64,000 nucleotides of DNA from Acidimicrobiia bacterium (GTDB taxonomy: Bacteria > Actinomycetota > Acidimicrobiia > Spongiisociales > UBA5794). Position numbers and translations under genes: made by a program. The notes beneath the pieces are model-generated. The model did no database searches. It saw nothing but the letters and a program-made list of their open reading frames with translations, and was not told the origin of the DNA. The stretch lies in NCBI GenBank assembly GCA_026985095.1, contig JALSQW010000023.1, positions 156,861 to 220,860 of the forward strand. The letters run 5' to 3'. Below are positions 31,102-42,474 of this stretch, piece by piece (the first letter of the stretch is position 1; the number at the start of each line of letters is the position of its first letter).

Positions 31102-32046
31102 ATGTGCGGCATCGCGGGGAGGATCCTTCGGGAACCGGGCCCGATCGGCGGAGACCTGGTCCAGCTGATGCAGGCCCAACGTCACCGGGGCGCCGACTCA
31201 ACTGGCTTCGCCCTCTACGGCCGACCTCGGGAGGAGGGGTACGTGCTTCGGCTTTTCCATCCCGATCGGTACCGACTCGACGCCACGCTCGAGGCGCTGG
31301 TGGGCGCCGTGCGCGACCAGGGCGGTGACCTGACCGGGGACCCTACCTGGGACGACACCGGCCAGGCCCACGTCTTCATCAGAGCCGAGATCGCCGAGCC
31401 GGCCACCGAGCCCGCGACGTGGGTCGACGCCGTCGAGTCGATCGACGGGCTCCAGATGGTGTCGATGGGGCGATCCCTGGAGGTCGTCAAGGACGTCGGG
31501 GACGCGGCCACGGTCGGGGCCAAGCACCACCTCGAGGAGTTCGTCGGCACCCACGGTCTCGGCCATGCCCGGCTGGCCACCGAATCCGAGGTCTCCCCCG
31601 TCGCCAGCCACCCCTTCTGGGCGCGGCCCTTCCCCGACGTCACCATCGTCCACAACGGTCAGCTCACCAACCACCACCTGTGGCGTCGCCGCCTGGAGCT
31701 CGCCGGCTATCGCTTCGATACCGACAACGACTCCGAGGTGATCGCGGTGTGGCTCTCGGACCGGATGGCATCGGGCATGACTCTCGAGGAGGCGCTGGAC
31801 ACCTCCATCCGCGACTTCGACGGGGTCTTCACCTACCTGTGCTCGACCGCGGAGGCCATCGGGCTTGCCAAGGATCGGCTGGCCATCAAGCCCATCGTCG
31901 CCATCGAGCACGAGGGAGAGGTGTGCATGGCCACCGAAGAGCAGGCACTGAGGACGCTCTACCGGGAGGAGGGCGAGATCGTGAACTACGACGGTCCCGG
32001 CATCGCCAGGGTGTGGTGGGCGCCGACGTTCGTGGAGGTCGCATGA
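31102..32046 (+). CDS. Class II glutamine amidotransferase subunit of N-methylglutamate synthase/GlxB type
   Basis: MCGIAGRIL N-terminal nucleophile Cys; HRGADSTGFALY; HNGQLTNHHLWRRRLELAGYRFDTDNDSEVIAVWL. Confidence 0.85.
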   Translation: MCGIAGRILREPGPIGGDLVQLMQAQRHRGADSTGFALYGRPREEGYVLRLFHPDRYRLDATLEALVGAVRDQGGDLTGDPTWDDTGQAHVFIRAEIAEPATEPATWVDAVESIDGLQMVSMGRSLEVVKDVGDAATVGAKHHLEEFVGTHGLGHARLATESEVSPVASHPFWARPFPDVTIVHNGQLTNHHLWRRRLELAGYRFDTDNDSEVIAVWLSDRMASGMTLEEALDTSIRDFDGVFTYLCSTAEAIGLAKDRLAIKPIVAIEHEGEVCMATEEQALRTLYREEGEIVNYDGPGIARVWWAPTFVEVA

Positions 32047-32741
32047 GTCGGGAGGTCGTCGAGATCGTCGCTGGCGAACGACCCCTTCGCGAGGTCAACG
32101 CCGAGATCCGGACGGCGGTGGCAGAGGGCAAGCATGTCGAGCTCCGCGAGCCGCTGTCGCGCCACAACCTGTGCGTGGCCCTCGAGGGCGGCGGCAGCGT
32201 CGCCATCGATGGGAGCGCCGGGTACTACTGCGGCGGGCTCAACAACGGCGGGATCATCGAGGTGCGCCGGAACGCCGGCTGGGGGGTCGGAGAGGCGATG
32301 GCTGCCGGGCGGATCATCGTCGACGGCTACGCGGGGATGGCGGCGGGCGCCTCCATGCGCGGCGGCACCCTGCACATCAAGGGCGATGCCGGGCCCCGCT
32401 GTGGGGTGGCCTTCAAGGGAGGCGACGTCGTCGTGGAGGGCTCCGTCGGGTTCCTCAGCGGGTTCATGGCCCACGCCGGGCGCATCGTCGTGTTGGGCGA
32501 CACCGCCGACGCCATCGGCGACTCGCTGTGGGGCGGTGAGGTGTGGGTCGCCGGAACGATCGGCTCGCTCGGGACCGACACCGAGGTCGTCGAACCCGAG
32601 GACGAGGAGCTGGCCTCCCTGGAGACGCTCCTGGGCGACCTCGGCATCGCCGATCGGCCGCAGGACTGGAAGAAGATCGTGTCCGCCCAAGGGCTGTGGC
32701 ACTTCCACGCAAGGAACGCACGCGCATGGCTGATGATCTGA
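32043..32741 (+). CDS. Glutamate-synthase GXGXG-domain subunit (MgsB/GlxC-like)
   Basis: GYYCGGLNNGGIIEVRRNAGWGVGEAMAAGRIIVDGYAGMAAGASMRGGTLHIKGDAGPRCGVAFKGGDVVVEG beta-helix repeats. Confidence 0.87.
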   Translation: MSREVVEIVAGERPLREVNAEIRTAVAEGKHVELREPLSRHNLCVALEGGGSVAIDGSAGYYCGGLNNGGIIEVRRNAGWGVGEAMAAGRIIVDGYAGMAAGASMRGGTLHIKGDAGPRCGVAFKGGDVVVEGSVGFLSGFMAHAGRIVVLGDTADAIGDSLWGGEVWVAGTIGSLGTDTEVVEPEDEELASLETLLGDLGIADRPQDWKKIVSAQGLWHFHARNARAWLMI

Positions 32742-34111
32742 CCGACGCCGCCGCCTACAACGGAGGTGCCGACCCGAACCGACCCGCTGGGATCCCCGAT
32801 TCGTACGGCCGCGGCCGCTCCCCCCGATGGACCCCCGAAGTGATCGCCGACATCCAGGCCAAGTCTCTCCTCGGCCGCTACCAGGTCCGGGGGTTCTCGA
32901 CGTTCAACCCCCGGATCCCCACCTTCGACGATCTCGTGTTCGTCCCCGCGACCATGACCCGTCTCCCCCTCGAGGGCTACCGGGAGGATTGCGACACCAG
33001 GACCGTGCTCGGGGAGCGACCGGGGCTGGTGGAACGGCCCATCGAGCTCGACATCCCGATCTACATCGCCTCGATGTCCTTCGGCGCCCTGTCGGCGACT
33101 GCCAAACGCGCCCTCGGTCGGGGCGCCTCCATGGTGGGATCAATGACCTGCACCGGCGAGGGCGGGATGCTGGAGGACGAGCGCGAGGCGTCCGATGTCC
33201 TCGTCTACCAGATGACGCCGTCTCGGTACCTGCTCGACCTCGATCATCTCCGTCGTGCCGACGGGATCGAGATCGCCGTCGGCCAGGGAGCCAAGCCCGG
33301 CACCGGTGGCGTGCTCCTCGGGATGAAGGTCTCTGCACGTGTCGCGGAGATGCGCACGCTCCCGGTCGAGGTCGACCAGCGTTCCACGGTGCGCCACCCC
33401 GACTTCCTCGGAGCCGACGACCTCCAGGTCAAGATCGAGGAGCTCCGCGAGGCGACCGGCTACCGGGTGCCGATGTTCTGCAAGATGGGAGCGACCCGGC
33501 CACGCTTCGACGTGGCGATCGCCGCCAAGGCAGGGTTCGATGTCATCGTCCTCGACGGCATGGAGGGTGGGACCAACGCGGCGCCCGAGCTGCTGCTGGA
33601 CCACACCGGGGTGCCGACCCTCACCGCCATCCCGGCGGCGCGCCAGGCCCTCGAGGAGTGCGGCATGGCCGACGAGGTGAAGCTCGTTGCTGCGGGGGGC
33701 ATCCGCTCGGGCGCCGACGTGGCGAAGGCGCTCGCCCTCGGCGCCGACGCCGCCATGATCGGCACCGCGGCGCTGATCGCCCTCGGATGCAACGCCCCGG
33801 TGTACGTCGAAGACTACGAGGCCATGGGCACCGAACCTGGGAAGTGCCACCACTGCCACACCGGGTTGTGTCCCCCGGGGATCCAGACCCAGGATCCACG
33901 CCTCGAAGCCCGTCTTGACCCCGACGCCGCGGCCGAACGCGTGGCTCGCTTTCTCACGGCCATGACGATGGAGGTCTCGATGATCGCGAAGGCGTGTGGC
34001 AAGTCCAGCGTCCACAACCTCGAGCCCGAGGATCTGCGTGCGCTCACGCCCGAGGCGGCGCTCTTCACGGGGGTGCAGCTCGCCGGGTTGGATCGGCCGC
34101 TGGCTTGGTGA
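32726..34111 (+). CDS. Glutamate-synthase FMN-domain subunit (MgsC/GlxD-like)
   Basis: PIYIASMSFGALSATAKRALGRGASMVGSMTCTGEGGML, GQGAKPGTGGVLLGMKV, AAGGIRSGADVAKALALGADAAMIGTAALIALGC, CHHCHTGLCPPGIQTQDP Fe-S motif. Confidence 0.92.
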   Translation: MADDLTDAAAYNGGADPNRPAGIPDSYGRGRSPRWTPEVIADIQAKSLLGRYQVRGFSTFNPRIPTFDDLVFVPATMTRLPLEGYREDCDTRTVLGERPGLVERPIELDIPIYIASMSFGALSATAKRALGRGASMVGSMTCTGEGGMLEDEREASDVLVYQMTPSRYLLDLDHLRRADGIEIAVGQGAKPGTGGVLLGMKVSARVAEMRTLPVEVDQRSTVRHPDFLGADDLQVKIEELREATGYRVPMFCKMGATRPRFDVAIAAKAGFDVIVLDGMEGGTNAAPELLLDHTGVPTLTAIPAARQALEECGMADEVKLVAAGGIRSGADVAKALALGADAAMIGTAALIALGCNAPVYVEDYEAMGTEPGKCHHCHTGLCPPGIQTQDPRLEARLDPDAAAERVARFLTAMTMEVSMIAKACGKSSVHNLEPEDLRALTPEAALFTGVQLAGLDRPLAW

Positions 34112-34132
34112 CGAGGGGAAAGGGAGGGCAAG

Positions 34133-35425
34133 ATGATCGACTCGCTACCGCCGGACACCCACACGGTGATCCTGGCACTCGGTGATCTCAGTGGGATCCT
34201 TCGTGGCAAGCGCCTGCACGTCAGCATGTGGGATCGCGCGTGTCGGACCGGCATCGCGATGGCCAACGCCATCTTCGTGTTGGACATGACCTGCGACATC
34301 TGGGACACGCCCTACGCCAACATGGGGACGGGATACCCCGACTTCGTCGTACATCCGATCGAGGGCACCTTGCGGCCGGTCCCTTGGTCCGAGGGCACGG
34401 TCCTGGCGATCGGGGAGGCCCGAGAGGAGGACGGTTCCCCGGTCCGGGTGGATCCGCGCGGTCGGCTGGTCCGGGTGGTCGAGAAGGCCGCGGTGATGGG
34501 CTACGACGCCAAGATCGGGACGGAGCTGGAGTTCTTCCTCCTCGACCCGGAGACGAAACGTCCGCTCGACACCGGTATCCAGGTCTACGGCATCGCCCGG
34601 GGCGCGATGTTCGAGCACGTCCTCGGGCCCATCCGCAACCTCTGCACCGAGTTCGGCATCCCCATCGAGCTGTCGAATCCCGAGTACTCCCCCGGCCAGT
34701 TCGAGGTGAACATCCACTACGCGTCGGCGTTGACGGCGGCCGACAATGCCATGCTCTTCCGCAACGCAGTGAAGGAGATCGCCGCCGACCACGGGTTGCT
34801 CGCCACCTTCATGGCGAAACCGTTCTCCGACCTGTCCGGAAGCGGCTTCCACGTCCATCAGTCCCTGTGGTTCGACGGGCGGAACGCGTTCAGCGACGGG
34901 AGCGGGCATCTTTCGGATGTCGGGCGTTGGTACCTCGGAGGTCTTCGGCGTCACATGCGGGAGCTCGCCCTGCTCGGGGCACCGAATCCCAACAGCTTCC
35001 GTCGGCGCCAGCCGTACACGTTCTGTCCCACCAACACCACCTGGGGCGGAGACAACCGGACCGTCGGCATCCGTGCCGTCGAGGGTCACGACGAGGCGGT
35101 GCGGGTCGAGCAGCGTGACGGCTCCGCCGACGCCAACCCGTACCTGCTGGTGGCCGGGCAGCTGGCTGCTGGCCTATGGGGGATCGAGAACGAGGCGGAC
35201 CCCGGACCGAGAACGGACGGGGATGCCTACGCCATCGACGACGTCGAGGCCATCCCTGCCACGGTTCCCGAGGCCGTCGAGGCCCTCCGGGGGTCGGCAT
35301 TGGCCAAGGAGCTTCTCGGTGACGAGCTGTTGGAGATCATCGTCGGCATGGCCGAGCGCGAGCAGGCGTTCGTGGCCGCGGCCGTCACTGACGTCGAACG
35401 AGCCCGCTATCTGGAGGCGTACTGA
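34133..35425 (+). CDS. Glutamine synthetase-like gamma-glutamylamide synthetase (GmaS/PuuA/IpuC superfamily)
   Basis: GTELEFFLLDPETKRPL, SNPEYSPGQFEVNIHYASAL, GSGFHVHQSLWFDG, NSFRRRQPYTFCPTNTTWGGDNRTVGIRAVEG; PuuA/GmaS-like rather than a canonical GlnA. Confidence 0.85.
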   Translation: MIDSLPPDTHTVILALGDLSGILRGKRLHVSMWDRACRTGIAMANAIFVLDMTCDIWDTPYANMGTGYPDFVVHPIEGTLRPVPWSEGTVLAIGEAREEDGSPVRVDPRGRLVRVVEKAAVMGYDAKIGTELEFFLLDPETKRPLDTGIQVYGIARGAMFEHVLGPIRNLCTEFGIPIELSNPEYSPGQFEVNIHYASALTAADNAMLFRNAVKEIAADHGLLATFMAKPFSDLSGSGFHVHQSLWFDGRNAFSDGSGHLSDVGRWYLGGLRRHMRELALLGAPNPNSFRRRQPYTFCPTNTTWGGDNRTVGIRAVEGHDEAVRVEQRDGSADANPYLLVAGQLAAGLWGIENEADPGPRTDGDAYAIDDVEAIPATVPEAVEALRGSALAKELLGDELLEIIVGMAEREQAFVAAAVTDVERARYLEAY

Positions 35426-35721
35426 TGAGGATCGCACGTGTTCTGGGCACCGCCACCGGCCCGGTGAAGGATCCGCCGTTGACGGGTCACACCCTGCTGG
35501 TGGTCGAGCCGGTGGACGCTACTGGTATCGCCGTCGGCCCACACGAGGTCGTCACCGACACCGTGGGAGCGGGGGTGGGGGACTGGGTGCTGGTCGCCGG
35601 TGGATCGGGTGCCCGCCAACCGGAGCGGACCCGCGGGATCGCGACGGACGCGTCGGCGGTGGTGATCTTGGAAGAGCTGAAGCTGGGAGGAACGACGACG
35701 TACAGAAGCGGTGACCGATGA
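35425..35721 (+). CDS. BMC-P pentameric shell (vertex) protein, EutN/CcmL family
   Basis: [52 protein letters not shown]. Confidence 0.93.
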
Positions 35722-35747
35722 CGGCACGAAGGAAGGGAGCAGGGAAC

Positions 35748-36041
35748 ATGGCAGAGAACAAGAAGCTGGCGTTGGGGATGGTCGAGACCCGGGGGATCGT
35801 CCCCGCGACCGAGGCTGCCGACGCGATGGTGAAGGCGGCGAACGTCGCCCTCGTGGGTCAGAAGGAGGTCGGCGGCGGTCTCGTGGCGATCTTCGTGCGC
35901 GGTGAGGTCGGCGCGGTGAAGGCGGCGACGGATGCCGGTGCGGTGGCTGCCAACAAGGTCGGCGAGGTGATGTCGGTGCACGTCATCGCCCGCCCCCACG
36001 ACGAGCTGTCGGAGATGATGCCGCACATCAACACCAAGTGA
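35748..36041 (+). CDS. BMC-H hexameric shell protein
   Basis: [84 protein letters not shown]. Confidence 0.95.
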
Positions 36042-36133
36042 GCCGGCGACGACGCCGTGTGCCGGGGCGGCACAGGACGGGCTCCGGGTCCGCCCGGAGC
36101 ACCGCCCGCGGCTTCCGGTGATCGGGAGGGGAC

Positions 36134-37510
36134 GTGGACACCGACCTGCGAAGTATCGCCGAGGCTCGCGCAGCAGCCGATCGCGCCTGGGATGCCTATC
36201 AACGCTTCCGAGGCACCCCACCGGCTGTCGTCGACCGGATCGTGGAGGCCATGGCGCACGCCGCGGCTCGTGAGGCCGAGCGCCTGGGCAAGATCGCGGT
36301 GGACGAGACCAACTGCGGCAACGCCGAGGACAAGCGGATCAAGAACCTGTTCAACGCGTTGGGCATCCTCGCTTGGCTGGAGAACGTCAGGACGCTCGGC
36401 GTGCTCTGGCGCGACGACCGGACCAAGACGGTCGCCATCGGGGAACCGATGGGGGTCGTTGCCGCGCTCATCCCGGTGACCAATCCGACCTCGACGGTCA
36501 TCTTCAAAGCTCTGTCCGCGGTCAAGGCCGGGAACGCGATCGTCTGCGCTCCCCATCCCCGGGGCGTGCGTAGCGGCGTCGAGACGACCGAGGTCCTCGC
36601 CCGGGCGGCGGAGGCCGAGGGCGCGCCGCCGGGGCTGATCCAGTGCCTCGGCGAGGTGACCTTGGAGGGGACGGACGAGCTCATGCGGCACCGCCGGACA
36701 TCGATCGTGCTCGCTACCGGCGGGTCGGCCATGGTGCGCGCCGCGTACTCGTGCGGGAAGCCGACCCTCGCCGTCGGTCCGGGGAACGTTCCCGTGTACG
36801 TCGACGTGTCGAAACGCCACGCGATCGGTGATGTCGCCGAGCAGGTGGTGTTCTCGAAGTCGTTCGACTACGGCACGGCGTGCGTCGCCGAGCAGGCGGT
36901 CCTCGCCCACCGGGACATCGCCGGGCCGCTCCGGGATGAGCTGCGCCTCGCCGGGGCGCACTTCTGCACCGACGCGCAGGCCGATGCCCTGGCGCGGGTC
37001 ATCTTCGGGCCTCGCCTGCAGTTGGTGCCCGAGAACGTGGGGCAGTCCGCCGGTCGCCTGGCGCAGCTCGCCGGGTTCGACGTCCCGCCGCGGACGAGGG
37101 TGCTGGTCGTCGATCTGGAGCGGGTGGGACGCGCCGTGCCGCTGTCGGCCGAGAAGCTGAACCCGGTATTGGCCTTCTACGAGGTCAGGGACGTTTCTCA
37201 CGGTTGTGAGCTCGCCGAGGAGATCCTCCGGTTCGGAGGGCTCGGACATACCGCGGCGGTGCACGCCGACGACACCGACGTGGTGGTGCGGTTCTCTGCC
37301 CTCCCAGCGGGACGGATCCTCGTCAACACCCCGTGCGTGCTCGGCGGCATGGGCTACACCACCGACATCGAGCCCAGCTTCATGCTCGGCACCGGCACCT
37401 GGTCCGGCTCGATCGTGTCGGACAACGTCACGGCGCTGCACCTCATCAACGTCAAACGCGTGGCGGAGGAATGTCGGTCGTGGAGGAGCTTCGAGGAGGA
37501 GAGATGGTGA
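36134..37510 (+). CDS. Aldehyde dehydrogenase, CoA-acylating type (EutE/AdhE-N/SauS-like)
   Basis: GVVAALIPVTNPTSTVIFKALSAVKAGNAIVCAPHPRG, ATGGSAMVRAAYSCGKPTLAVGPGNVP, SFDYGTACVAEQ catalytic Cys; GTG start. Confidence 0.88.
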   Translation: MDTDLRSIAEARAAADRAWDAYQRFRGTPPAVVDRIVEAMAHAAAREAERLGKIAVDETNCGNAEDKRIKNLFNALGILAWLENVRTLGVLWRDDRTKTVAIGEPMGVVAALIPVTNPTSTVIFKALSAVKAGNAIVCAPHPRGVRSGVETTEVLARAAEAEGAPPGLIQCLGEVTLEGTDELMRHRRTSIVLATGGSAMVRAAYSCGKPTLAVGPGNVPVYVDVSKRHAIGDVAEQVVFSKSFDYGTACVAEQAVLAHRDIAGPLRDELRLAGAHFCTDAQADALARVIFGPRLQLVPENVGQSAGRLAQLAGFDVPPRTRVLVVDLERVGRAVPLSAEKLNPVLAFYEVRDVSHGCELAEEILRFGGLGHTAAVHADDTDVVVRFSALPAGRILVNTPCVLGGMGYTTDIEPSFMLGTGTWSGSIVSDNVTALHLINVKRVAEECRSWRSFEEERW

Positions 37511-38139
37511 CCACCGGGACGAAGGCCGTCGTGGTCCGAGCGCTGGCGCAGATCGACCGGCTCCAACCGCAGTTCGCCGCCTACAACGCTGCCACGGTGC
37601 GGGGCTCCGTCCCCGAGGAGGGCGACACCATCCTGGTCGGGGAGATCTCCCCGGGCAACGAGGTCTTCCGGGCGGTCGACATCGCCCTCAAGACCAGCGA
37701 GATCGAGGCCATGTCCCAGGTGGTCGAGCGGGAGTTCGGGTTCTTCCTGCTGCGGTCGCCGGTCAACACGGCGATCACCGAGGCCAAGGAGGCGATCCTC
37801 GAAGATCTCGGCGTCCGTCTGGAGGATCGTCTGCGTCCTCGGGTGGAGAGCGTGCAGCGCATCACCTCGGTGCGCTCCCACCAGGCCAAGCTGCTCAACA
37901 TCTGGCGTCGAGGAACCCTGGTGATCCCGGGCCAGACGCTCGGCATCGTCGAATGTGCCCCCGCCGCGTACATCGCCGTCGCCGCCAACGAGACGGAGAA
38001 GGCCGCGGACGTCCACCTCGTCGAGGTGCGTGCGCTGGGCCGATACGGCCGGCTGTTCATGTCCGGGACCGAGGAGGACGTGGCCACGGGCATCGAGGCA
38101 GCGGTCGCGTCCTTGGAGGGGTTGGAGGGACGGGAATGA
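37504..38139 (+). CDS. BMC-T tandem-domain trimeric shell protein
   Basis: RLQPQFAAYNAATVRGSVPEEGDTILVGEISPGNEVFRAVDIALKTSEIEAMSQVVEREFGFFLL ... QAKLLNIWRRGTLVIPGQTLGIVECAPAAYIAVAANETEKAADVHLVEVRALGRYGRLFMSGTEEDV; two BMC folds. Confidence 0.93.
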   Translation: MVTTGTKAVVVRALAQIDRLQPQFAAYNAATVRGSVPEEGDTILVGEISPGNEVFRAVDIALKTSEIEAMSQVVEREFGFFLLRSPVNTAITEAKEAILEDLGVRLEDRLRPRVESVQRITSVRSHQAKLLNIWRRGTLVIPGQTLGIVECAPAAYIAVAANETEKAADVHLVEVRALGRYGRLFMSGTEEDVATGIEAAVASLEGLEGRE

Positions 38140-39320
38140 GCGTGATCGGTGAGGCCGAGGTTCGCAGGATCGCCCGGTCGGGCCGGCAGGAGGTCGTTGT
38201 TCGTCCCGGCGACGTGCTCACACCCCAGGCACGCGACGCGATCGCCGAGTTGGGTCTCGAGACGGTCGATCGGCCCCGATCGGTGCCGAGCGGTCCTCCC
38301 GTCGACGAGGCCACTGCCGTGCGTCGGGTGCTCCTTCGCCGGTCGCCGCGATGGGTGCCGCCCGAGGCCCCGACGCGATCGCGAGGCCGGAGGTTCGACC
38401 GCGTGGCGATCGTCGGCGCTGGCATGGTGGGCACCACCACCGCCCACGTCCTGGCGCTCGCCGGCGCGACGCGACAGCTCGCCCTCGTCGATGTCGCGCC
38501 TGGTCTGGCCGCGGCCGTCGCTCTCGATCTCGAGCATTCCACGGGGATCTCGCGGTCGTCCACGGTGACCAAGGGCGGAACCGACATGGCGCTTCTGGCG
38601 GACGCCGACGTCGTGGTCGTGACGGCCGGGCGGCCTCGTCAACCCGGCATGGATCGGCGGGATCTCGTGGAGGTGAACGGGAAGATCGTCCGATCGGTCG
38701 CCCAGGCGATCGCCGAGCACGCCCCGGAGGCGGTCGTCGTCGTGGTCACCAATCCCCTCGACGAGATGGCCCGAGAAGCCTATCTCGCCACCGGCTTCCC
38801 CCGCCGCCGGGTCTTGGGGATGGCGGGCACCCTCGATTCCTCGCGCTTCAGGTGGGCGCTGGCGCGGGCCGCCGGGGTCGACCCCGGGGACGTCGAAGCG
38901 ATGACCCTCGGGAGTCACGGCAACGAGATGGTCCCGGTCGTCTCCCGCGCCACCGTCCGAGGCCGTCCGATCACCGAGGTCTTGTCGGCGGAAGCGATCG
39001 CTCGTTGTGTCGAAGAGACGGTCCATGCCGGAGGGCGGGTGGTGGAGCTTCGCCGCACCGGCTCGGCGTTCCTCGCGCCGGGACATGCCATCGCCGAGGT
39101 CATCGATGCCATGCGTGGGGTCGCCGGCGGTCCGATCCCCGTGTCCGTCCTCCTCGACGGGGAGTACGGACTCGAGGACGTCTTCCTGGGGGTGCCGGCG
39201 ATCCTCGATGAGCGGGGGCTGGTGGAGATCGAGGAGATCCCGTTGTCACCGGAAGAGGAGTCGGCCCTCCATGACGCCGCCATGGCGGTGCGGGGCCGTG
39301 TGGGTGCGAGCACGAAGTAG
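38136..39320 (+). CDS. Malate/lactate dehydrogenase-family NAD enzyme with about 85-aa N-terminal BMC-type extension
   Basis: VAIVGAGMVGTTTAHVLALAG, GRPRQPGMDRRDLVEVN, VVTNPLDEMAREA, GTLDSSRFRWALA, GSHGNEMVPVVS; extension contains PGDVLTPQARDAIAELGLETV. Confidence 0.87.
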   Translation: MSVIGEAEVRRIARSGRQEVVVRPGDVLTPQARDAIAELGLETVDRPRSVPSGPPVDEATAVRRVLLRRSPRWVPPEAPTRSRGRRFDRVAIVGAGMVGTTTAHVLALAGATRQLALVDVAPGLAAAVALDLEHSTGISRSSTVTKGGTDMALLADADVVVVTAGRPRQPGMDRRDLVEVNGKIVRSVAQAIAEHAPEAVVVVVTNPLDEMAREAYLATGFPRRRVLGMAGTLDSSRFRWALARAAGVDPGDVEAMTLGSHGNEMVPVVSRATVRGRPITEVLSAEAIARCVEETVHAGGRVVELRRTGSAFLAPGHAIAEVIDAMRGVAGGPIPVSVLLDGEYGLEDVFLGVPAILDERGLVEIEEIPLSPEEESALHDAAMAVRGRVGASTK

Positions 39321-39330
39321 AGGAGGAACG

Positions 39331-40644
39331 ATGGATTTCAACGCGTTGGTCGACCGGATCGTCGAGGAGCTCGAAGCCAGGGAGCGGCCGGGTGGGGATC
39401 GGAGCCCGCGGCGTCGGGCCGCGCCGTCGACGCCCGCGGGGGGATTCGAGCGGGCCGTCGACCCGGCTCGGCGTGCGCGTCGCGCCGGCGAGATCAAGTT
39501 GACGGTGCTCGGCGGCGGCAATGGCGGTCTCGCCATGGCGGGCCACATGAGCCTCCTCGGGTACGAGACGACGTTGTGGTCGCCCTTCTCGTGGGAGCTG
39601 GAACCGGTCGAGGAGCATGGCGGCATCGAGGTGCTCGGGCCCGAGGTCTCCGGATTCACGAAGGTCGCCAGGGTCACTCGAAGCCTGGACGAGGCCGTGC
39701 GGGGCGCGGATCTGATCATGATCGTCGCCCCGGCGATGTCCCACCGGCCCTACGCGTCCATGCTGGCTCCGCTCTTGGAGAGTGGACAGCGGGTGGTGCT
39801 CAACCCGGGTCGGACCGGCGGCGCGCTCGAGTTCGCCAGGGTCCTGACCCGTTTCGCCTGCTCGGCCGACATCGTCCTCGGCGAGACCCAGACGTTCATC
39901 TACGCGGCCGAGCGGCGCGGTCCGAACTCCGTGGAGATCCTCAAGGAGAAGTTCCGGATGCGGGCCGCGGCGTTCCCGGCCAGGGACAACGACGCGTTGA
40001 TGGCGTACCTCCAGGACTTGTATCCGCAGATCGAACCGGCCGCGCACGTGCTGGAGACGTCGCTGAACAACGTCGCTCCGGTCGTCCACCCGGGCACCGT
40101 GCTCCTCAACACGCAGGTCATCGAACGGACGGCTGCGGGCGAGCCGCTGAAGTTCTACAAGGACCAGGTGACCCACTCCATCGCCACCCTGATCATGGAG
40201 GACCTCGACAAGGAGAAGCAGGCCGTCGCCCGCGCCTTGGGGATCCAGGAGGTCTGGTCACTGCTCGACTGGTATCGGGAGAGCTACCACGTCGTCGGTG
40301 ACACGATCTACGACGCGATCATGGCCAATCCCTACTACGAGGGCTTCTCGGCCCCCAGCCACATCCTCGCCCAGAACCACATCCTCGACGACGTCCCCAA
40401 CTCCCTCGTGCCCATCGCGGACTTCGGCCGCGCCGTGGGGGTCGCCACACCGACCATCGACTCGATCATCTCGCTGGCCTCGGCCATGTGCGACATCGAT
40501 TGGTGGTCGGAGGGCCGGACCATCGAGAGCCTCGGCTTGGGCGGTATGGCCCCTCAGGAGATGGTGGCCCACGTCGAGCGAGAGGCCCTCGGCGGTCGTT
40601 GCTCGGAGTCCGGGGTCTGTCGGGCGTTCGGCTTCTACCGGTGA
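39331..40644 (+). CDS. NAD/NADP octopine (opine) dehydrogenase-family enzyme with N-terminal encapsulation-peptide-like helix
   Basis: MDFNALVDRIVEELEARE amphipathic helix + R/P/G-rich linker, then LTVLGGGNGGLAMAGHMSLLGYETTLWSP; C-terminal FYKDQVTHSIATLIMEDLDKEKQAVARALGI. Confidence 0.87.
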   Translation: MDFNALVDRIVEELEARERPGGDRSPRRRAAPSTPAGGFERAVDPARRARRAGEIKLTVLGGGNGGLAMAGHMSLLGYETTLWSPFSWELEPVEEHGGIEVLGPEVSGFTKVARVTRSLDEAVRGADLIMIVAPAMSHRPYASMLAPLLESGQRVVLNPGRTGGALEFARVLTRFACSADIVLGETQTFIYAAERRGPNSVEILKEKFRMRAAAFPARDNDALMAYLQDLYPQIEPAAHVLETSLNNVAPVVHPGTVLLNTQVIERTAAGEPLKFYKDQVTHSIATLIMEDLDKEKQAVARALGIQEVWSLLDWYRESYHVVGDTIYDAIMANPYYEGFSAPSHILAQNHILDDVPNSLVPIADFGRAVGVATPTIDSIISLASAMCDIDWWSEGRTIESLGLGGMAPQEMVAHVEREALGGRCSESGVCRAFGFYR

Positions 40645-40654
40645 GGAGACGACG

Positions 40655-40963
40655 ATGTTGATCGCGGTGACGCAGGTCGAGGCGGTCGCGGCGAGCGGCC
40701 GGAAGCGACTGGAGGTCCCACCGGGGGCGGTGGTGACGCCCCTGGCGGAGGAGCGGGCCGAGGAGCTGGGGATCGAGCTGTCGGGAGCGCGTGCACGCGG
40801 CGACGGGTCTCCCGGCGACGACTCCTGGGAGGTCGAGGTCCGACGCCTCGTCCGCGCGGTCCTCGACCGACTCGGCGAGAGCCACGAGAGAGAGGAGGCG
40901 GTCACGGCGGAGGTTCTACGGCGGCTCGGGGGAAGGTGTGGTTGCCCGCGGCGGCGGGGCTGA
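40655..40963 (+). CDS. Small BMC-associated protein: LTP/ELG domain, linker, C-terminal amphipathic helix
   Basis: AASGRKRLEVPPGAVVTPLAEERAEELGIEL ... GDGSPGDDSWEVEVRRLVRAVLDRLGESHE; in operon between ODH and permease. Confidence 0.7.
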   Translation: MLIAVTQVEAVAASGRKRLEVPPGAVVTPLAEERAEELGIELSGARARGDGSPGDDSWEVEVRRLVRAVLDRLGESHEREEAVTAEVLRRLGGRCGCPRRRG

Positions 40964-40993
40964 GGGTCGAGAGGCGTGGACGGAAGAAACCGG

Positions 40994-41028
40994 TTGCGGC
41001 AGTCGATTCCGGTCTGCATACTGGATAC
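40994..41028 (+). promoter_or_regulatory. Putative internal promoter/operator upstream of the APC permease
   Basis: TTGCGG-N17-CATACT, with CATACTGGATAC overlapping the -10, similar to CATATACTGTATTC (reverse complement of the GntR palindrome at 31060-31080). Confidence 0.4.
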
Positions 41029-41049
41029 AACACGGAGGGAGGAGGAGAC

Positions 41050-42474
41050 ATGACGACGACGGAGACCGACGTCGGTCTGGTCAAGGTACTCACGACGAGG
41101 GACATCGTGGTGGCGGGTGTTGGGCTCGTCGTTGCCGCCACGACCCTGGTCAGCGACTTCAACGGATGGTTCACCTTGGGGAGCGCCTTCTGGTGGGCGC
41201 TGGTCCTGGCGTTCCTCATCAACCTGTTCCTCGGGTTGTCGGTCGCCGAGTTGGCCACGACGTATCCAAAGGCCGGCGCCATCTACGACTACGGCGCCGC
41301 GGCGGTACCGGGTACGGGTTCCCTGGCGGCGGTGACAGGGATCTTCCTGGCGTTCTCGTTCTACGCCATGTTCGCCTTCGCCGGACCCGGCGAGACCGTC
41401 GCCGGCGCCTTCGGCTTCCAGGGGCTGTTCAACGGCTCTGGCGCGATCTGGCCGTGGATCGTGGCGATGACCATCCTGGCGGTCATCCCGAACCTGCTTG
41501 GGATCGAGGTCCTGGCCAAGGTGGAGCTGGTGCTCATCATCGGCATGCTGGGGATCAGATGGTTGTTCGGCTTGGCAGGGTTCGCCGGCCTGGGCGAGAC
41601 CGGGGCGTGGAGCGCGGCCAACTGGAATGCCGGGATCGGCATCTTCGACTGGAGTACCGTTCTGGCGGGTGGACTGGCGTTGGCGTTCTGGAGCTTCGTC
41701 GGGATCGAGTTCGTCGCTCCCCTTGCCGAGGAGGCGAAGAGTCCGACCCGCTCGTTGCCTCGCGGCATCGTCATCGGTCTCCTCATCATCTTGTTCACGT
41801 CGCTGCTCATGGGCTTCGGTGTCGGCGGTACGTTGCCGACCAGCGAGTGGGGCGCTGTGGCGTTCGGTGAGCTCGGCTGCGAAGGGCAGTGCGCCCAGCT
41901 CGCCGTCGGCCAGACCATGTTCGGCGGGGGAGGGAAGTTCGCCATGGCGTTGGCGACGTTCCTGGCGACCTTCGCCTCGATGACCATCGTCTACGCCGCG
42001 ATGCCGCGGGTCCTCTACGGCGTGGCTCGCAACGGCCACTTCTTCGGTCCCCTGTCGAAGGTCTTCGGCTCGGTGCATCCGCGTTACCGGACGCCGTGGG
42101 TCGCCATCGTGGTGACGGCGGTGCTCTACACGGCGGCGGCGATCGCATTCCAGGACGTGATCGAGCTGATATTCTCCGCAGCGTACGCCTGGCTCGTCCT
42201 CTACGTGGGTTACCACGTGATGGTCATCACAAGCCGGTTCACGAACCCGGACGTCGATCGGCCCTTCAAGCTTCCGCTGGTCATGCCGGTCATCGGCGTG
42301 CTCGGTACGATCGTTGCGATCTACTATGCCTTCGCGGGGGTGCACGGGCTCTTCGGCGTGCGCTCCATCTGGATCTTCGTCGGTTCGCTGGTGGCGGCGC
42401 TCGCCGCCTACGCCCTGCGCGGATCGTCGGGCATGGCCGAACACCTCGCCGAAGAGATCCACCAGGAGCTGTGA
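41050..42474 (+). CDS. APC-family amino acid/amine permease
   Basis: LVVAATTLVSDFNGWFTLGSAFWWALVLAFLINLFLGLSVAELATTYPKAGAIYDYGAAAV; 12 TM; strong RBS GGAGGGAGGAGGAG. Confidence 0.9.
   Translation: MTTTETDVGLVKVLTTRDIVVAGVGLVVAATTLVSDFNGWFTLGSAFWWALVLAFLINLFLGLSVAELATTYPKAGAIYDYGAAAVPGTGSLAAVTGIFLAFSFYAMFAFAGPGETVAGAFGFQGLFNGSGAIWPWIVAMTILAVIPNLLGIEVLAKVELVLIIGMLGIRWLFGLAGFAGLGETGAWSAANWNAGIGIFDWSTVLAGGLALAFWSFVGIEFVAPLAEEAKSPTRSLPRGIVIGLLIILFTSLLMGFGVGGTLPTSEWGAVAFGELGCEGQCAQLAVGQTMFGGGGKFAMALATFLATFASMTIVYAAMPRVLYGVARNGHFFGPLSKVFGSVHPRYRTPWVAIVVTAVLYTAAAIAFQDVIELIFSAAYAWLVLYVGYHVMVITSRFTNPDVDRPFKLPLVMPVIGVLGTIVAIYYAFAGVHGLFGVRSIWIFVGSLVAALAAYALRGSSGMAEHLAEEIHQEL

Follow-up and report, generated by a model that had tools for sequence, protein, structure and literature searches.

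Many catalogued metabolosomes contain an aldehyde dehydrogenase (ALDH) for which the aldehyde-making enzyme is unrecognised (PMC8217296). The structurally characterized opine dehydrogenases include CENDH from Arthrobacter (1bg6) and the octopine dehydrogenase of the scallop Pecten, OcDH (3c7a/3c7d). In OcDH, Gln118 binds the carboxylate of pyruvate (PMC6033044), while Arg324 contacts the pyrophosphate of NADH and is described as an NADH sensor rather than as a ligand of the keto-acid carboxylate (PMC2924402). For CENDH, the seven-mutation variant that ranked first for the coupling of cyclohexanone with butylamine includes the exchanges R292V and Y293H (PMC6033044). We know of no natural opine dehydrogenase that uses an aldehyde in place of an alpha-keto acid. 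The NAD(P)+-dependent, glutamate-forming saccharopine dehydrogenase splits an N-alkylglutamate into glutamate and an aldehyde; it is not known to be linked to bacterial microcompartments (BMCs). Finally, the domain pair PF00056/PF02866 has been described as the predicted core AlcDH of PVM loci (PMC4207490). Here we report on an opine dehydrogenase (ODH) encoded amid BMC shell genes in an Acidimicrobiia genome. The window, i.e., the whole stretch of DNA analysed, comprises 64,000 nucleotides.

The opine dehydrogenase and its gene cluster

The segment 39331-40644 on the + strand is a real open reading frame coding for an opine dehydrogenase of 437 amino acids. Its ATG start codon at 39331 is located 10 bases past the stop codon of the preceding gene and has a good ribosome-binding site upstream (GAGGAGGAACG); a longer frame of 545 amino acids starting at 39007 was rejected, as it is only upstream read-through of the same frame. 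Residues 237-387 match the Octopine_DH domain PF02317 (E 1e-34), and the protein aligns with CENDH at E 5e-67 (phmmer) and with scallop OcDH at E 1e-14. The AlphaFold model, calculated from nine input sequences (mean pLDDT 77, pTM 0.79), supersedes an earlier five-sequence model in which the C-terminal domain was poor (pLDDT 56). It shows a two-domain enzyme with a helix at residues 3-17, pLDDT values below 50 over residues 18-47 and the first Rossmann strand at residue 56, and among solved structures its fold is closest to that of 1bg6 (TM 0.92, normalised by target length). The enzyme meets the features of the opine dehydrogenase family, a PF02317 helical domain together with a Rossmann domain.

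The ODH gene is part of a tightly packed cluster of 12 genes (31102-42474), all on the + strand, which reaches from an MgsA-like subunit through to an APC permease. The cluster opens with an MgsA/GlxB-like class II glutamine amidotransferase subunit (31102-32046; PF13522/PF13537), which keeps Cys2 (MCGIAG) and has a homologue in all nine loci described below, an MgsB/GlxC-like GXGXG subunit (32043-32741; PF01493) and an MgsC/GlxD-like subunit with an FMN glutamate-synthase domain (32726-34111; PF01645, E 2e-91), which is a candidate N-alkylglutamate synthase. These are followed by a glutamine-synthetase-like (GS-like) gamma-glutamylamide ligase (34133-35425; PF00120, E 2e-91) with an unidentified amine; it passes the cut-off of none of the NCBIfam equivalogs, GMAS included, and reaches equivalog level for no amine. 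The shell is represented by a BMC-P vertex protein (35425-35721; PF03319), a BMC-H hexamer (35748-36041; PF00936) and a CcmP-like BMC-T tandem protein (37504-38139; NF053796, E 4e-55, PF00936). A CoA-acylating ALDH of the acetaldehyde-dehydrogenase type is encoded at 36134-37510; it scores 460 bits against TIGR02518, under the cut-off of 620, and its best solved match is the acetylating acetaldehyde dehydrogenase 5j78. With a BMC-H and BMC-P shell and an acylating ALDH, the cluster meets the features of a metabolosome core.

Directly upstream of the ODH gene lies a malate/lactate-dehydrogenase-like (MDH-like) protein with an N-terminal extension of 87 residues (38136-39320; PF00056/PF02866), which is a candidate NAD+ recycler. 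It carries the residues PRQPGMDR, which we take to be of the malate type, and the reaction by which it would recycle NAD+ is thereby unclear. Its homologue in locus L038 has a C-terminal extension resembling an encapsulation peptide (EP) instead. Downstream of ODH, a protein of 102 amino acids (40655-40963) shows in translation a TPLAxxxAxELGI motif together with an EP-like helix (VRRLVRAVLDRL); it has no family match in profile searches and only weak homologues in L032 and L040. Its 'VTPLAEERAEELGIEL' motif recurs at the N-terminus of the MDH-like protein of the window (38136 on) and in other BMC-locus proteins. The cluster closes with an APC-type amino acid/amine permease (41050-42474; PF13520), a homologue of which is found beside loci L038 and L040.

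A PduL-type PTAC (PF06130) is absent from the genome of the window (G000) and from the two Acidimicrobiia genomes with the closest related loci (G008, G077), so that CoA recycling remains unexplained there. A second shell locus of the same genome was considered as the missing part of the ODH locus and was rejected: it is SPU-like and has its own ALDH.

Recurrence of the locus in Actinomycetota and Bacillota-lineage genomes

The ODH was found in nine BMC loci. Three belong to Acidimicrobiia (the window, L039/L032 and L038/L031), one to another family of Actinomycetota (L078) and five to Bacillota-lineage genomes (L040, L041, L075, L076 and L077). As the catalytic domains of the L076 and L077 enzymes are identical, these nine represent eight distinct enzymes. 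All nine loci encode BMC-H, BMC-P, ALDH, MgsABC and GS-like proteins. The ODH gene is located between BMC-H and ALDH in L038, L040, L041 and L078 and adjoins BMC-H in L075-L077, where two MgsC-like genes are present in each locus. Candidate NAD+ recyclers are the MDH-like protein in the three Acidimicrobiia loci and a PduS-like protein in L040, L075 and L076. Among the Bacillota-lineage locus genes are a TIGR02536-like Eut protein and, in L076, a PduL-type PTAC; the L076 ALDH scores above the cut-off of the acetaldehyde-dehydrogenase equivalog TIGR02518 (676.6 versus 620.1 bits). Besides the candidate ODH, the loci showed neither an aldehyde-forming enzyme nor an ethanolamine ammonia-lyase.

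A count of three phyla was rejected and only two lineages are claimed, since the genome of L040, labelled Desulfovibrio, groups with the Bacillota-lineage genomes. The Desulfovibrio sp. label of L040 (JAGUZX010000079.1) is possibly wrong; G169, which belongs to the class list of the L040 genome, is likewise found in the phylum list of the Bacillota genome G150. In the same locus a sigma-54-dependent regulator with GAF and AAA domains (PrdR/PrpR-like; L040:1451-2938) is encoded ahead of the permease and might be an amine sensor.

For comparison, a set of 52 non-BMC ODHs was used, composed of 50 enzymes from loci plus CENDH and OcDH. Non-BMC here means that no shell gene is present in the available flanks, which for most of them span only ~1.5 kb.

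An N-terminal helix conserved in the shell-linked enzymes

Residues 1-18 of ODH (39331-39384) form an EP-like helix, and approximately residues 19-38 (39385-39444) a variable linker rich in Arg, Pro and Gly that cannot be aligned between orthologues. Behind the linker a FERAVDPxRRA segment is conserved in the three Acidimicrobiia. The hydrophobic moment of the helix alone is not exceptional compared with shuffled sequences (p 0.09); PduP (0.09) and PduD (0.06) behave alike in this shuffling test. It is the conserved pattern, rather than the hydrophobic moment, that marks the helix as more than chance. The pattern [LIMVF][LIVMYA]xx[IVLM][LIVMA]x[EQ][LI] is present in the N-terminal extensions of all BMC-linked ODHs (9/9) and in none of the in-frame sequences upstream of 50 non-BMC ODHs. 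In many of the latter a stop codon, or the start codon, immediately precedes the Rossmann domain. Its chance background is 4 occurrences in 18,876 positions of the translated open reading frames of the window. As the sequences had been inspected before the pattern was drawn up, these counts are descriptive and do not constitute a blind test. Among the shell-linked ODHs the pattern is kept down to ~50% identity, while the linker has diverged beyond alignment. EP-like helices are also present at the C-termini of the ALDHs of L038, L075, L076 and L078.

The window ODH shows the features of BMC cargo, an amphipathic helix in the range of 15-20 residues with a flexible linker and a gene encoded together with shell proteins in an arrangement conserved between genomes. 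Encapsulation is strongly supported by the fact that nine loci in two phyla always combine shell genes with the N-terminal helix on an ODH of one dedicated clade. That ODH is core cargo of a BMC is very likely, although encapsulation itself is inferred from comparative evidence and no localisation data exist. The initial annotation, made from the sequence alone, had proposed an enzyme of the opine-dehydrogenase family with an N-terminal PduP/PduD-type encapsulation peptide and a linker of about 30 residues rich in Arg, Pro and Gly. The family assignment held (PF02317, CENDH 1bg6 and fold). The encapsulation peptide is supported by the conservation of the pattern (9/9 versus 0/50), for which the hydrophobic moment alone would have been insufficient. 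The linker claim held in part, as the variable section covers only ~20 residues (19-38) before FERAVDPxRRA begins.

A single clade with altered active-site residues

In a tree of 61 catalytic domains the nine BMC ODHs form a single clade with a support of 100/100. The catalytic His is kept in all of them (His253 in the window, CENDH His202), as is the carboxylate of the dyad, either Asp or Glu (Asp354 in the window, CENDH Asp297). The Arg of the 'RYxxED' motif (CENDH Arg292, OcDH Arg324) is present in 52/52 non-BMC ODHs and replaced by Asn, His, Tyr or Gly in 9/9 BMC ODHs; at the positions of CENDH Arg292 and Tyr293, both exchanged in the engineered variant ranked first for a non-carboxylated ketone, Asn349 and His350 are found in the window ODH. 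This Arg is no published defining feature of opine dehydrogenases, but it is invariant in the non-BMC sample, and from its loss we take the BMC enzymes to be a branch that has diverged within the family. Moreover, CENDH Arg143 is changed to Glu in eight of the nine, and an Asp is found at the position of CENDH Glu296 in all nine. Since the nine enzymes form one clade, these residue changes may reflect a single event.

Computation shows the family membership, the operon with its conservation, the helix with its linker, the grouping in one clade and the altered residues; what the changes mean for the substrate is less certain. They fit a carbonyl partner without a carboxylate, but they are no proof of one. 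Reading the Arg-to-Asn change as the loss of a ligand for the alpha-keto-acid carboxylate is weakened by the OcDH study, which assigns this Arg to NADH sensing (PMC2924402), and because OcDH Arg324 is a sensor of the NADH pyrophosphate, the loss alone is no proof that the substrate is an aldehyde. Where OcDH has Gln118, 9/9 BMC ODHs have Arg161, and due to this match carboxylate binding at Arg161 is still possible; alternatively, Arg161 may, by inference, bind the gamma-carboxylate of glutamate. The BMC ODHs have Ser84 where the non-BMC enzymes mostly have Asn, Asp, Glu or Arg, and the cofactor preference cannot be read from this position.

Two further observations concern the family. A conserved C-terminal tail with two cysteines (CxxxGVCR type) is present in five of the nine BMC ODHs (window 40597-40641; L038-L041) and missing from the other four (L075-L078). 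Three tandem opine-dehydrogenase-like genes without shell genes were seen in L036:8408-11761 (G020:C5), and in the product of the middle gene the catalytic His is missing.

A putative pathway of amine utilisation

We propose that ODH works in the shell lumen as the signature enzyme of a metabolosome for the utilisation of amines. The first steps would take place in the cytosol: the GS-like ligase would convert an alkylamine into a gamma-glutamyl-alkylamide, from which MgsABC would then make an N-alkylglutamate. As the MgsA-like subunit keeps Cys2 of class II amidotransferases, the ligase and MgsABC may be understood as a pair resembling GS/GOGAT, an inference drawn from their families. The N-alkylglutamate would enter the shell, where ODH is predicted to oxidise it at the alkyl carbon with NAD(P)+, and hydrolysis would release glutamate and an aldehyde, a reaction with a precedent in glutamate-forming saccharopine dehydrogenase. 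The co-encapsulated CoA-acylating ALDH would convert the aldehyde to acyl-CoA. The reduced cofactor would be recycled by the MDH-like protein in Acidimicrobiia or by the PduS-like protein in Bacillota-lineage loci, and in some Bacillota a PduL-type PTAC would complete the core.

We lean towards this full scheme, in which an encapsulated ODH turns an N-alkylglutamate into glutamate and an aldehyde, although by no great margin: encapsulation, substrate, direction and aldehyde are all inferred and activity data do not exist. The initial annotation had suggested an aldehyde-releasing core enzyme that replaces the N-methylglutamate dehydrogenase MgdABCD. The aldehyde-releasing role is supported only indirectly, by the status of ODH as the sole candidate signature enzyme seen in the loci, by the MgsABC and GS-like genes upstream, by the absence of SoxD and by the loss of the Arg; the reaction, its direction and the amine are inferred. 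The replacement of MgdABCD is consistent with the genomes, as the sarcosine-oxidase-type SoxD (PF04267), expected with MgdABCD, is absent from the five searched (G000, G008, G077, G149 and G150). As positive control, this family is present in 25/89 genomes of the order of the window, to which three of the five belong. An N-methylglutamate route would yield formaldehyde, while the ALDH points to acetaldehyde instead. Because the window ALDH is nearest to acetylating acetaldehyde dehydrogenases and the L076 ALDH passes the equivalog cut-off, our first guess is ethylamine as the amine and acetaldehyde as the aldehyde; judged from these relatives, the aldehyde is most likely acetaldehyde rather than formaldehyde.

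Alternative explanations

The alternative that survives best assumes that the encapsulated ODH runs reductively, joining an amino acid and a carbonyl compound to regenerate NAD+ for the ALDH, and that an unrecognised enzyme makes the aldehyde. In its favour, the classical descriptions of opine dehydrogenases concern the reductive direction (PMC6033044), which octopine dehydrogenase takes in mollusc muscle, NAD+ recycling is a need of metabolosomes (PMC8217296), and Arg161 at the OcDH Gln118 position keeps the option of carboxylate binding. Against it, the role of recycler is already filled by the MDH-like protein in the window and the PduS-like protein in Bacillota-lineage loci, the loci show no alternative aldehyde-forming enzyme, and the Arg that is invariant in the compared non-BMC ODHs is lost. 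We regard it as unlikely.

It also appears improbable that ODH acts on the other C-N bond in the N-alkylglutamate, breaking or making it with amine and 2-oxoglutarate as partners and without release of an aldehyde. Keto-acid chemistry is usual for opine dehydrogenases, and Arg161, present in 9/9, could hold the carboxylate of 2-oxoglutarate. Such a reaction would, however, duplicate MgsABC, deprive the ALDH of its aldehyde and leave the shell without a reason. That the helix is no targeting peptide and ODH is a cytosolic enzyme merely co-transcribed with the shell is very unlikely: the insignificant hydrophobic moment of the window helix (p 0.09) and the lack of co-purification data would allow it, but the helix pattern is found in all nine shell-linked and in 0/50 non-BMC ODHs next to an unconserved linker, and similar helices end four of the ALDHs (L038, L075, L076, L078).

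Significance and comparison with known systems

Under the preferred reading, that of an encapsulated, aldehyde-releasing ODH, the locus would encode a metabolosome whose signature enzyme is of a new kind, and no BMC is known to us in which an ODH has this task. This novelty holds within the literature searched. No paper treating BMCs and opine dehydrogenases together was found in the full texts searched, related terms gave nothing relevant, and the view of the initial annotation that no characterised BMC has such a cargo met no contrary paper there. Within the terms searched, octopine or opine dehydrogenase, glutamate synthase and glutamine synthetase are unmentioned in the main texts of the two BMC catalogues (Axen 2014; Sutter 2021). 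As the supplementary locus tables were not covered, the locus could already be listed under a MIC/MUF-type label of unknown function.

A bolder reading, for which we see slightly more reason to doubt than to believe, is an undescribed metabolosome type in Actinomycetota and Bacillota-lineage bacteria, in which a GS/GOGAT-like pair makes an N-alkylglutamate from an alkylamine that is probably ethylamine, and an encapsulated ODH with a remodelled active site would release acetaldehyde from it. If true, this would be, to our knowledge, the first natural opine dehydrogenase of this kind and a new class of BMC signature enzymes. The locus is a concrete candidate for the missing aldehyde-making enzyme, from a family not linked to BMCs in the literature searched. 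It suggests an entry of amines into a microcompartment free of cobalamin and radicals, would extend opine dehydrogenases to a catabolic role, and would be a natural counterpart of the engineered ODHs that accept non-carboxylated carbonyls, with use in reductive amination.

Compared with CENDH and Pecten OcDH, the window ODH shares the fold, PF02317, the GGGNGG Rossmann motif, the catalytic His and the dyad Asp. It differs by its EP-like extension, by the lost RYxxED Arg and the Glu for CENDH Arg143, and by its neighbourhood of shell and N-alkylglutamate-synthase-like genes. Saccharopine dehydrogenase is absent from its sequence matches and from its 50 best fold matches. With the N-methylglutamate pathway (GMAS, MgsABC, MgdABCD) all nine loci have MgsABC-like and GS-like genes in common; SoxD is missing from the five genomes tested, and a BMC-tied, NAD(P)-dependent ODH would replace MgdABCD. 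The Acidimicrobiia loci, with ALDH and shell but without PTAC, resemble the metabolosome with incomplete core (MIC; Axen 2014; Sutter 2021), and they share with MIC1 and PVM an LDH/MDH as candidate NAD+ recycler (PMC4207490). EUT2-type metabolosomes have in common with the ODH loci an ALDH of TIGR02518, above cut-off in L076, and with those of the Bacillota lineage the PduL-type PTAC, the PduS-like protein and the TIGR02536-like Eut protein, but the place of their aldehyde-forming enzyme is here taken by ODH, MgsABC and the GS-like ligase.
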